IMG/VR virus record: IMGVR_UViG_3300009308_000013
Span: 1-21,330 of that record
DNA from: a virus
DNA: 21,330 nt
Reading direction: 5' to 3' (one strand)
Made by a program: the position numbers and the translations under genes. Every line of letters begins with the position of its first letter. Positions within the stretch are counted from its first letter, which is position 1. Below are positions 2,815 through 5,899 of the stretch, piece after piece. The notes under the pieces are model-generated. The model saw only the letters and a list, made by a program, of their open reading frames with translations. It was not told where the DNA came from and made no database searches.

Positions 2815-2994
2815 TCATTCACTTTTCGTTTGTAAAGAGTAGTTATACAATTTCTCAGCCGTATCTAACGTCATGTTACCAATAGGCGACTCCCCGTTTT
2901 GATAACGGTTAACAGTTCGGGCGTTGATTCCTAAGTCTTTGGCGATTCTGTAAGCCGTTTTCGTTTTGAGTAGTTCTTCAATTTCTTTTTTCAA
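2815..2994 (-). CDS. Small HTH DNA-binding protein
   Basis: A 59-residue protein read on the minus strand, beginning MKKEIEELLKTKTAYRIAKD, continuing LGINARTVNRYQNGE and ending NYSLQTKSE. The segment TAYRIAKDLGINARTVNRYQNG (about residues 13-34, given here in pieces) is a clear helix-turn-helix of the Cro/XRE type, so it is probably a DNA-binding regulator. The start is TTG at 2994, which overlaps the stop of the upstream gene (TTGA). AAGGAGG (3011-3005) lies ten bases upstream. It is the second gene of a two-gene operon transcribed from the promoter at 3456-3484 and ends right before the bidirectional terminator. Its target may be the palindromes at 3458 or 5627; that is inference. Confidence 0.8.
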   Translation of the reverse strand: MKKEIEELLKTKTAYRIAKDLGINARTVNRYQNGESPIGNMTLDTAEKLYNYSLQTKSE

Positions 2995-3407
2995 ACCCCA
3001 ACTTCCTCCTTCTGTTTAATTACTTTGTATTTTCTCGCCGTCTTCAGTCCCACGATGTCATACGATCCGTTTGGCAAATCCATATAGAACCACACCTCGG
3101 GTTCTCCTGTGTCTTGCACCAATTTGATAGCAGCTACTTTCTTTGTTCTTTTTCCAGTAGACACTATATCACCTACTGCCAATCCGCTGTGTTCCGTGTA
3201 CCTTTCCAGTGTTGTGAAGCCGTTAATCGTGATCGGCGCGTACTGCCCAAGCAAAGCGTTAATTTCTTTCGCTTCTTCCTCATTCACTTCTATATAACCG
3301 AACGACCCCTTGAAAGACATTTCGCCATCCTTCAATATCTTTCTTTCGATATTCGTAAACCCGTTATCTAATGCAAACTTGATTTCCGATAATGTGCTTT
3401 TCATCAT
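2991..3407 (-). CDS. Hypothetical protein, first gene of the minus-strand operon
   Basis: A 138-residue soluble protein that I do not recognise. It begins MMKSTLSEIKFALDNGFTN and has a mixed alpha/beta character. A stretch at about residues 73-90 (HSGLAVGDIVSTGKRTKK) could be a small barrel-like (SH3/KOW-type) module, since it continues with VAAIKLV and EVWFYMDLPNGSYD. AAGGGGAT lies eight bases before the ATG. The gene sits directly under a good promoter with an operator, and its stop overlaps the start of the downstream HTH gene, so the two are co-expressed. A role in lysogeny or phage-plasmid maintenance is suggested by place only. Confidence 0.7.
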   Translation of the reverse strand: MMKSTLSEIKFALDNGFTNIERKILKDGEMSFKGSFGYIEVNEEEAKEINALLGQYAPITINGFTTLERYTEHSGLAVGDIVSTGKRTKKVAAIKLVQDTGEPEVWFYMDLPNGSYDIVGLKTARKYKVIKQKEEVGV

Positions 3408-3508: not shown

Positions 3509-4102
3509 TCAATCTACTTTTCGCCATCCATTAACAACAAAGTCCCCGACGTACATTAACATATCGGACCACGCAATCGAGGTTTTATATGGATTATCGG
3601 AATTGATATACTTCATAACCTTTTTTAATTCGGCTTGGTGTTCCTCAGTTAGTTTCTTCCTCTTGGAATGTTTGCTCATGAGTGTATGAATGAACTCGGG
3701 GTCGCGGATACTAGCGTTAATGAGTACAGCAGTGGCACGGGATGGAGTGACATCTAATGCGTGGGCTAATTTTGCGATGTTTTCAAAGTCGTCTGTTGTG
3801 AATTTAGTGGTGATCCGTTCATGGAAACCCTTTTCCTTTCTCCTCTGTAATGATGGATTATCCAAGCTGCCAAAGTAAATGGTGTTTTCTAGTCGGACAT
3901 CACGTCTGAAATGCGGCTTCAGATAACCCATAACTTCTTTCGAATGTATTCCCTCCTCACACAAGATAACCGCGATGTCCTTAACGGGTATATCGCAAAT
4001 ATCAGACAGGCTATAAATGATCTTCTTCAATTGAATTGGAATCATCGGTTTTACATCCCTCTTTTTGTCTGACCGAACTTTTCTTTCTCCTCTATCGCCC
4101 AC
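3509..4102 (-). CDS. Hypothetical protein with ribbon-helix-helix-like segment, divergent to parM
   Basis: A 197-residue, basic, soluble protein on the minus strand, divergent from the parM-like gene. The N-terminal part (about 20-70) is helical. Residues 96-132, starting RITTKFTTDDFENIAKLAHA and continuing LDVTPSRATAVLINASI, have the strand-helix-helix pattern of ribbon-helix-helix (CopG/MetJ) DNA-binding proteins. A charged helical stretch follows (KHSKRKKLTEEHQAELKK). The start is GTG at 4102, with AGGAG (4115-4111) eight bases before it; an ATG at residue 20 is an alternative. Its place next to the segregation genes and divergent orientation suggest a regulator of partition or copy number, but this is inference and I do not know its family. 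Confidence 0.65.
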   Translation of the reverse strand: MGDRGERKVRSDKKRDVKPMIPIQLKKIIYSLSDICDIPVKDIAVILCEEGIHSKEVMGYLKPHFRRDVRLENTIYFGSLDNPSLQRRKEKGFHERITTKFTTDDFENIAKLAHALDVTPSRATAVLINASIRDPEFIHTLMSKHSKRKKLTEEHQAELKKVMKYINSDNPYKTSIAWSDMLMYVGDFVVNGWRKVD

Positions 4103-4376
4103 CGCGCACTCTCCTATTCTATTGTGGTGTTTGGGTTAGGACACATACCCCATTCCCAAGCTTAAATCATCATATGGATGGCGGGGGAGTAGTATGCATA
4201 CATTTACGAGAGAGGGAACAAATAGTCGGGGAATAGGGCGGAGGTACTATCTTAGGATTCTCGATGTATAAACCTCTCTCCCCTTCCGTATACTCTTATT
4301 ACAGCGGCAATAAAAAAACTTAGATGACTGTCGAAGAATTATTGCCGTTGCAATATAAAATCGAGGGGATGGGTTA
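4103..4376. other. Divergent intergenic region; candidate centromere (parC) and promoter region
   Basis: 274 bases without a supported gene lie between two divergent genes. The region contains a 10-bp perfect palindrome GTATGCATAC (4192-4201), purine-rich and pyrimidine-rich blocks that are mutually complementary (GAGAGAGGG near 4209 and CCTCTCTCC near 4273), and a long-range inverted repeat (4305-4347). No tandem iterons of the R1 parC kind are obvious. No convincing -35/-10 pair was found on either strand, although both flanking genes need promoters here. As the DNA just upstream of an actin-type par operon it is the first place to look for the centromere bound by ParR; this is inference from the known layout of type II par loci. 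Confidence 0.45.
4305..4347. repeat. Inverted repeat upstream of parM-like gene
   Basis: CGGCAATAA (4305-4313) and TTATTGCCG (4339-4347) are perfect 9-bp inverted arms separated by 25 bases, ending 30 bases before the parM-like ATG. It could be an operator pair, a ParR-binding site or an RNA hairpin in the leader. It has no T-run and so is not a terminator. Confidence 0.65.
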
Positions 4377-5237
4377 ATGACTATATTATTAGGGGTAGAC
4401 GCAGGGAACCATATGGCAAAAGTGGCGGGGGCATACGGAACTGATTCTTATAGAACTTCTATTTGTGATTGGTTCGAGCGGGACGTTGAGGAAACGTTTG
4501 GCAATGACGATATGGAGTTTGAAGTCGATGGGAGAAAAGGTTTCGCCGGATCCATTGCAGAACATGAGGATGAATATGGCGGCGGTGGTTCGATGTTCGG
4601 TGATACCAAAGCACACCAGGACACAAAAATAAGAGTTCTACTGGCCATTTCCCGTTATCTAAAAAAGTATTGCCCTGGTGAATACTCAGTTAAAATAATA
4701 GTCGGTCAGCCTGTCAAAACTCACAAGGATTCCGAAAAGCAAAAGATCAAAGACATGTTAATTGGTCATCATAATTTCAAAGTTAATGGGCATCATAAAA
4801 ATATAACCATCGAAGCGGTAGAGGTCGCCACAGAGGGCGGAGGCGCTTTCTGGTCTAACCCTAACAATGGGACGATTAGAGTATTAGACATCGGCAGCGG
4901 AACTGTTAACGCCGTCACGACGATTGATAAGAAGTTCGTCAACAATAAGTCCGATACATTTAACTTCGGGGTTGAGACGATCAAAAACAGGGCAGACATT
5001 GACGGCATGGCTCGGGGTATTATCCGCAGCACAACCAAGTTGAAATGGCACAAAAACGACAGGGTGTATGTATGTGGCGGAATAGCCGAAGAAATCGCGC
5101 CGTTCATAGCGGAGCACTTCGTAAACTCAGAGATCATATATCCGCAGCTACAATGTAACGAGGGGGTAATTGTTACGCAGTCGGTATTTTCGAACGCGGT
5201 AGGTTTTTATAACATTGCCAGGGGACATTACAAATGA
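4377..5237 (+). CDS. parM: ParM/StbA-type actin-like ATPase (plasmid or phage-plasmid segregation)
   Basis: A 286-residue actin-fold protein. The nucleotide-binding elements are visible: phosphate-1 loop LLGVDAGNHMAKV (4-16), connect/IVGQPV segment (108-113), phosphate-2 loop VLDIGSGTVNAV (169-180) and adenosine motif VYVCGGIAEEI (230-240). Length and motif order fit the ParM/StbA and Alp family of filament-forming segregation ATPases rather than MreB, FtsA or Hsp70. Such proteins polymerise and push apart two DNA copies through an adaptor bound to a centromere. The next gene, overlapping by four bases (ATGA), is ParR-like, completing the pair. GAGGGGAT stands seven bases before the ATG. Phage-encoded segregation actins are known from some Firmicutes and Actinobacteria phages; that this one maintains an extrachromosomal prophage is inference. 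Confidence 0.88.
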   Translation: MTILLGVDAGNHMAKVAGAYGTDSYRTSICDWFERDVEETFGNDDMEFEVDGRKGFAGSIAEHEDEYGGGGSMFGDTKAHQDTKIRVLLAISRYLKKYCPGEYSVKIIVGQPVKTHKDSEKQKIKDMLIGHHNFKVNGHHKNITIEAVEVATEGGGAFWSNPNNGTIRVLDIGSGTVNAVTTIDKKFVNNKSDTFNFGVETIKNRADIDGMARGIIRSTTKLKWHKNDRVYVCGGIAEEIAPFIAEHFVNSEIIYPQLQCNEGVIVTQSVFSNAVGFYNIARGHYK

Positions 5238-5470
5238 GTCGCAAATGTAAGACGATCAGTTTCAAATTGACGGACGGTTACGAAATGCGATTGTTGGATT
5301 ACGCCGAAAAGGAAAGTAACGGGGATTTCAGCAAGTACATTAAACGGCTGATAAGTCGAGATATGGAATTGCACGAGCGTATGTCGTCACCACCCATGAA
5401 CGGGATACCGTCACCCGCAACAATCGAAGTAATGAAACCAATCGAACAGGATTTCAGTGGTTTTCTATGA
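5234..5470 (+). CDS. parR: ParR-like ribbon-helix-helix centromere-binding adaptor
   Basis: A 78-residue protein. The N-terminal half (KTISFKLTDGYEMRLLDYAE, residues 6-25, then KESNGDFSKYIKRLISRDME) has the short beta-strand followed by two helices typical of RHH proteins, which dimerise on DNA. The C-terminal third is Pro-rich and disordered-looking, with an end (EQDFSGFL) that may contact the filament, as the ParR C-terminus does. It starts at the ATGA overlap with the parM-like gene, an arrangement expected for parMRC loci, and a terminator follows directly. Together these make a complete type II partition operon apart from a proven centromere. Confidence 0.82.
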   Translation: MSRKCKTISFKLTDGYEMRLLDYAEKESNGDFSKYIKRLISRDMELHERMSSPPMNGIPSPATIEVMKPIEQDFSGFL

Positions 5471-5510: not shown

Positions 5511-5574
5511 ATTTTTATTTAATTAAAACAATTGGGAACTATATATAGAAGGAACACTAACAGAAAGTTATAAT

Positions 5575-5601
5575 TAATAGAATCTATTAGTAATATAATA
5601 G
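5575..5601. repeat. Overlapping inverted repeats (operator-like array)
   Basis: Three arms of one hexamer alternate in direction: TAATAG (5575-5580), CTATTA (5584-5589) and TAATAG (5596-5601). The first two form a perfect palindrome with a 3-base centre and the last two one with a 6-base centre. The array lies directly upstream of the probable early promoter, in AT-rich DNA, where a regulator could bind cooperatively. Confidence 0.6.
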
Positions 5602-5608
5602 AAAGTGC

Positions 5609-5637
5609 TTGCATATATGAATCTAGCATAGTACACT
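5609..5637 (+). promoter_or_regulatory. Probable early promoter
   Basis: TTGCAT (5609-5614) and TACACT (5632-5637) are 17 bases apart and point at the XRE gene starting at 5672. Each hexamer matches the vegetative consensus at about four of six positions, so strength is uncertain. The 14-bp palindrome at 5627-5640 covers the -10 box. Confidence 0.5.
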
Positions 5638-5640
5638 ATG
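5627..5640. promoter_or_regulatory. Palindromic operator over the early promoter -10
   Basis: CATAGTACACTATG is a perfect 6-2-6 inverted repeat (CATAGT / ACTATG). It has the same geometry and the same central AC as the operator TATACCACGGTATA at 3458-3471, and shares the ATA...TAT outer bases. A common or related repressor could therefore act on both promoters. Confidence 0.6.
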
Positions 5641-5671
5641 TTTAGAAGTTGAAAGCGAGGTGAACAAGATA

Positions 5672-5899
5672 ATGACGAAACAAGTAATAAATGCTAACTT
5701 GCTAGAGTCTCTAATGGTTTTGAAAGGTTATAAGAGTCGCGCGCAATTTGCAAAGGCTTTAAATATTTCAGTATCGACGATTCACAACATGATAAACGGC
5801 ATTAACGCTCCGTCCGGAACATTGATTAACGCAATCTACAAACAACTAGACCTAACACCAGATGAATTAGCAAAAATATTCTTTGGGGAGGATAAATGA
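5672..5899 (+). CDS. XRE/Cro-type HTH regulator, first early gene
   Basis: A 75-residue protein consisting almost only of an XRE-type helix-turn-helix domain. The recognisable core is SRAQFAKALNISVSTIHNMI (about residues 22-41), then the NGINAPSGTLINAIYKQLDL segment of helices 4-5. The ATG at 5672 was chosen because AGGTGA (5658-5663) lies eight bases upstream; the in-frame GTG at 5660 is inside that site. As first gene behind the operator-rich region at 5575-5640 it is a Cro-like or autoregulating early regulator by position. There is no second (peptidase or oligomerisation) domain, so it is not a classical CI-type repressor. Confidence 0.85.
   Translation: MTKQVINANLLESLMVLKGYKSRAQFAKALNISVSTIHNMINGINAPSGTLINAIYKQLDLTPDELAKIFFGEDK

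Follow-up and report, generated by a model that had tools for sequence, protein, structure and literature searches.

The window analysed here is an entire virus record of 21,330 bases (IMGVR_UViG_3300009308_000013), which is a fragment and not a complete genome. A check for circularity found no end repeats in the window, and it contains no Rfam elements. The locus under study comprises the following features:

3509..4102, minus strand: divergent gene, here called div, predicted (AlphaFold model) to encode a tandem ribbon-helix-helix (RHH) DNA-binding protein of 197 aa
4103..4200, minus strand: conserved DNA element upstream of div, defined by an alignment of 14 sequences from phage and plasmid loci
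4297..4355, no strand assigned: candidate parC/operator, two 17-nt sites (4297-4313 and 4339-4355) whose starts lie 42 nt apart
4377..5237, plus strand: parM, actin-like ATPase of the AlfA/ParM class, 286 aa (Pfam, PHROG, profile and predicted fold)
5234..5470, plus strand: parR, putative adaptor with an RHH-type N-terminus and an acidic/hydrophobic C-terminal tail (DFSGFL), 78 aa
5478..5513, plus strand: intrinsic terminator with an 11-bp stem and a T-rich tail (stem-loop 5478-5504 plus T-run)
5514..5659, no strand assigned: empty slot between parR and the early XRE gene (ORF list and integrase search)
5660..5899, plus strand: Cro-like XRE regulator, which opens the early region (HTH_3, E 2e-8)

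The product of parM matches Pfam ALP_N (E 3e-15) and the 'partition protein' family PHROG_691 (E 4e-40), and a profile of 12 sequences finds AlfA as the top solved structure (E 9e-14), with other ParMs next. The initial annotation had proposed an actin-type partition pair headed by a ParM-like ATPase with its nucleotide motifs and had suggested a structural comparison of the 286-residue protein. Both the motifs and the family match are confirmed: the predicted structure (pLDDT 92.6) shows the actin fold with conserved nucleotide motifs, and AlfA is its best fold match (Z 29.9, 2.5 A over 265 residues). The third closest structure is that of Dh-cParM1 (8x1i, Z 28.3). The chain is short, and only 12 residues lie between strand 193-195 and helix 208-221 in the model, which may reflect the lack of an extra subdomain IIB that marks the small motors of the AlfA subgroup. 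Compared with a relative whose ParM is 84% identical, parM is under strong purifying selection (dN 0.09, dS saturated), and a chance ORF is ruled out by conservation, selection and family matches. The assignment to the ParM family is correct, and the protein is closest to AlfA.

The ORFs of parM and parR overlap as ATGA, and a small RHH-type gene follows directly behind parM in the relatives examined. An alignment of 24 ParR proteins encoded behind parM genes reveals a beta-alpha-alpha N-terminus of RHH type, then a variable linker, and a C-terminus with L or I in all 24 proteins and with F/L plus L/I in 21 of them. This bears out the ParR-like RHH protein of the initial annotation. The RHH fold is predicted from the pattern of sequence and secondary structure; ParR has no match in Pfam or NCBIfam, and its profile, compared with solved structures, hit no solved ParR and gave a meaningless match only. 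The parR gene evolves about 4.5 times faster than parM (dN 0.42). The terminator that had been assigned to the operon is likewise found: the search returned one terminator against a shuffle mean of 1.7, which is weak evidence by itself, yet it is placed directly behind parR. In PVJ1, two ParR-like genes (L002 20880-21101 and 21411-21635) are located near a single parM.

Upstream of parM, the paired sites, which the initial annotation had overlooked together with the divergent partner gene, start about 80 and 37-38 nt before the start codon. Each is a near-palindrome of the ATTGC-N4-GCAAT type, and the two are 15/17 complementary (88%), a match that exceeds all 60 shuffles. Pairs above all shuffles also occur in Paenisporosarcina HGH0030, PVJ1 and three further loci (L085, L086 and L087), at nearly the same positions and spacing and with different sequences. 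The best pair is spaced by 40-49 nt in 23 of 61 cassettes compared with 122 of 732 shuffles (p about 7e-5, an optimistic value since the 61 cassettes share kinship). The pairs are weak in G001 and G002, the two relatives with 84% identical ParM that are long enough to show an integrase. Elsewhere in the window, further copies of the site are not above chance (14 compared with 10.2 expected). Since two sites are few for a centromere, in comparison to the 24 short repeats of alpS from the Corynebacterium prophage CGP3, they may serve as an operator only.

The AlphaFold model of the div product (pLDDT 82.9) consists of two beta-alpha-alpha units (residues 15-51 and 94-132). Its best structural matches are chains of the F relaxosome (Z about 11), which we take to be TraY. 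The protein is modelled as a TraY-like tandem RHH within one chain, with about 12% identity to TraY of the F plasmid; its profile found no sequence match among solved structures and no usable family match. The gene adjoins parMR in G001-G003, HGH0030, PVJ1, the phage Lietuvens and the Sporosarcina plasmid pSP10-266k, and is under strong purifying selection compared with G001 (dN about 0.1, dS saturated). As a single query div recovered nothing from viral contigs, whereas the div alignment recovered 25 loci. Outside the cassette, homologs were detected in 71 plasmid records, nearly all from Bacillaceae. The eight plasmid loci examined for it (L072-L079) show div without an adjacent parM; in one of them, from Lysinibacillus, a ParM gene lies about 1.4 kb away. 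Unlike TraY, div is a solo gene on many Bacillaceae plasmids, and in the loci looked at no relaxase was seen beside it and no oriT nearby. The element at 4103..4200 combines TATGCATACT-CTCCCCC with an inverted repeat of the TTAGGACAC type, which is degenerate on one side in the window, and is likely the promoter/operator of div. The TraY-like protein may act in regulation or as a further partner that binds DNA. On plasmids and in Lietuvens (L003, L071-L074, L076 and L078), div is repeatedly preceded by a lysine-rich ORF of about 30 aa (..KKYGIPLKKKPKK), which the window lacks.

Between parR and the early genes, no integrase, CI-type repressor or att-like repeat was found in 5514..5659. The XRE gene that follows is 51% identical to its homolog in L055. 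Further early genes of the window (ATPase, RecT and metallo-hydrolase) have counterparts in a group of other viral contigs and prophages, of which L055 is the best-matching one with a retained XRE gene. In L055 the XRE gene comes immediately after genes for a serine integrase and a CI-type repressor, whereas in the window parR is followed by the terminator and then by XRE. Positions 1-3521 of L055 belong to a prophage that adjoins a ComFA-like host gene. The absence of an integrase from the window had been noted in the initial annotation and holds for all 21 kb, in which no CI-type repressor and no plasmid-type initiator were recognised either. The initial annotation had also placed the cassette in the usual integrase/lysogeny slot. 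Integrase and repressor are indeed missing there, but in most relatives parMR lies beside this slot and not in it. On the minus strand between the endolysin gene and the cassette, the window carries a small HTH gene (PHROG_1529) and a gene for a 138-aa protein (2815-3407). They have no homolog in the compared relatives at E 1e-4 and could possibly encode an unrecognised regulator.

The relatives of the cassette are mostly found in integrating phages. G001 carries a tyrosine integrase and G002 a serine integrase, and no tail sheath was found in either of them, which is consistent with siphophages. G001 begins with the 3' part of a tmRNA gene (Rfam RF00023, E 2.5e-26) and has a second copy of CGACTCCCGCCGTCTCCATAT close to the opposite end, some 500 bases beyond parR; it is a prophage in ssrA with a duplicated att core. 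The same core was sought in the window and not found. Paenisporosarcina HGH0030 carries a 46.9-kb prophage between topA and dprA on a 2.5-Mb contig. This prophage is terminated by the cassette (ParM 62%), is flanked by a 16-nt repeat and has its integrase at the dprA end. PVJ1, whose ParM shares 55% identity with that of the window, integrates at deoD, and its attP has the integrase on one side and the neighbours of parMR on the other (PMC8779076). Where relatives were examined closely, the cassette is located between the lysis genes and attP.

This picture extends to a survey of 79 ParM-bearing viral records, in which integrases were counted wherever a record reached 30 kb or more. Of these 50 longer records, 41 (28/32 plus 13/18) encode a tyrosine or large serine recombinase of full length; the count may include duplicate records, and a few of the enzymes may have functions other than integration. 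In the first set, the position of the integrase was measured in 28 records, and in 20 of them its gene lies on the strand opposite to parM, 0.4-5.4 kb further downstream on the circular map. The cassette is thus normally found beside attP. No integrase was recognised in G041 and G044 (corresponding to L114 and L117), two viral records with ParM that are 33 and 68 kb long and are candidates for phage-plasmids.

The best explanation, to which we assign a probability of roughly 60%, is that of an AlfA-type partition cassette that belongs to temperate phages of Firmicutes, most of them integrating, that tends to lie beside attP and that acts on extrachromosomal phage DNA. It builds on directly observed genes, motifs, predicted folds, paired sites and conservation, as well as on the integrases and integrated prophages of relatives. 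According to this explanation, ParR dimers would bind the two sites upstream of parM via their RHH domain, and bound ParR would repress the parM operon and mark the phage DNA. The hydrophobic C-terminal tail of ParR might contact ParM in a similar way as the ParR C-terminal peptide in the solved complex with R1 ParM (4a62), and ATP-driven ParM filaments would then move or segregate the circular phage DNA. A role in segregation is supported by the presence of a cassette homolog on the 266-kb Sporosarcina plasmid pSP10-266k. By analogy to the AlpAC and SrpMRC systems, the motor would matter only for extrachromosomal DNA, after infection or excision.

By sequence and fold, the closest solved ParM type belongs to the AlfA-AlfB-parN system of the B. 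subtilis plasmid pLS32/pBS32. AlfA of pLS32 functions in segregation, and a small adaptor is encoded directly downstream of the motor. Both motors are short (286 aa in the window and 275 aa for AlfA) and share 19-22% identity. In contrast to the AlfA system, the cassette of the window is phage-borne, lies beside an integrase in most relatives and possesses a two-site upstream element and a divergent tandem-RHH gene. The AlpA-AlpC-alpS system of CGP3 also combines an actin-like motor, a DNA-binding adaptor and upstream DNA sites. Its alpAC genes lie at one prophage border and the integrase at the other, and loss of AlpAC halves the amount of circular CGP3 DNA (PMC4446434). However, in CGP3 the adaptor gene is located upstream of the motor gene, whereas parM precedes parR in the window, and the host phylum differs. 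SrpM-SrpR-srpC of the SXT/R391 ICEs is ParMRC-like, lies next to int and is dispensable unless the element has been excised (PMC4489591). It resembles the present family in being a partition locus on an integrating element, although this element is conjugative and not a phage, and the sequences are distant.

In the window genome itself, integrase and repressor do not occupy the position that they have in relatives, and this would fit an integrase elsewhere in the genome, a virulent derivative or a phage-plasmid. The missing integrase says little about lifestyle, since the window is a 21-kb fragment; as proof of plasmid life it was rejected for this reason and in view of the integrases of relatives. 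The initial annotation had regarded a phage-plasmid as the simplest reading, and this is not supported by the 41 of 50 ParM-bearing records that carry an integrase. The integrases of the 84% relatives and the integrated prophages of G001, HGH0030 and PVJ1, two kinds of result that the initial annotation had named as refuting, contradict it within the family, but do not refute it for the window genome.

We consider it unlikely that this phage has lost its integrase and is kept as a circular plasmid segregated by ParMR. Phage-plasmids with ParM are already known (PMC8026635, PMC6669507). Among siphophages of the B. cereus group, B83 and IEBH possess a ParM-like protein and an RHH adaptor (PMC6669507, PMC8026635). 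Compared by their published descriptions, their prophages are circular plasmids, which is proven in the case of IEBH and predicted in that of B83; B83 has a RepA-type initiator, and IEBH lacks an integrase or other recombinase. A distant branch (27%) of the same ParM family includes a phage-plasmid, PJN02, which shows 100% identity over 86% of a queried 24.7-kb stretch to CP106792, the record of a 165.6-kb circular plasmid of B. subtilis; together with the cassette homolog on the 266-kb plasmid and the vacant slot in the window, this would fit plasmid maintenance. On the other hand, both 84% relatives carry integrases, one of them being integrated in ssrA, and the visible 21-kb fragment lacks a recognised plasmid-type initiator or CI-type repressor. 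Furthermore, at the search sensitivity applied, none of 72,556 plasmid records came close to matching the DNA of the window.

It is rather improbable that the window represents a virulent or decayed derivative from which integrase and repressor were deleted, so that the par genes would be passengers or position DNA only during lytic growth. The loss of both lysogeny genes from the slot, with no CI-type repressor recognised, agrees with such a history, as does Lietuvens (64.5 kb with terminal repeats), which carries the cassette with a 182-aa recombinase only, but the strong purifying selection on parM and div compared with G001 does not. That the paired sites serve, together with both RHH genes, only as a transcriptional circuit, with ParM positioning replication or assembly, would agree with sites located where an operator is expected and with CGP3, where AlpC is needed for efficient phage replication and segregation was not shown (PMC4446434), but is quite improbable given the same cassette on a large plasmid, the origin of the closest structure, AlfA, from plasmid pLS32, and the conserved ParR tail.

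In the open-licence PMC texts, we found no description of a family of AlfA-type cassettes that has become established next to attP of integrating phages from Firmicutes and that combines the two-site geometry with a plasmid-type tandem-RHH gene. We tentatively suggest, as a proposal that is more doubtful than the preferred reading, that they might form a distinct class of phage DNA motors. This class would be characterized by an AlfA-like motor, a ParR that evolves fast, a minimal centromere of two sites whose geometry is fixed and whose sequence differs between cassettes, and a plasmid-derived TraY-like gene, and it would be located beside attP and act at the excised stage only.

Actin-type partition genes are read as a sign of a phage-plasmid. 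Since the cassettes of this family mostly sit in integrating phages beside the attachment site, this marker misleads when used alone, and a partition pair by itself does not mean a plasmid lifestyle. This raises the question of what need a chromosomally integrated phage has for a segregation motor. ParMs have also been reported on chromosomes, in a paper whose text does not mention phages (PMC12270681). The locus of Dh-cParM1 of Desulfitobacterium, which was reported as chromosome-encoded, may be a prophage border. The cassette family described here is a possible source of such chromosomal ParMs.
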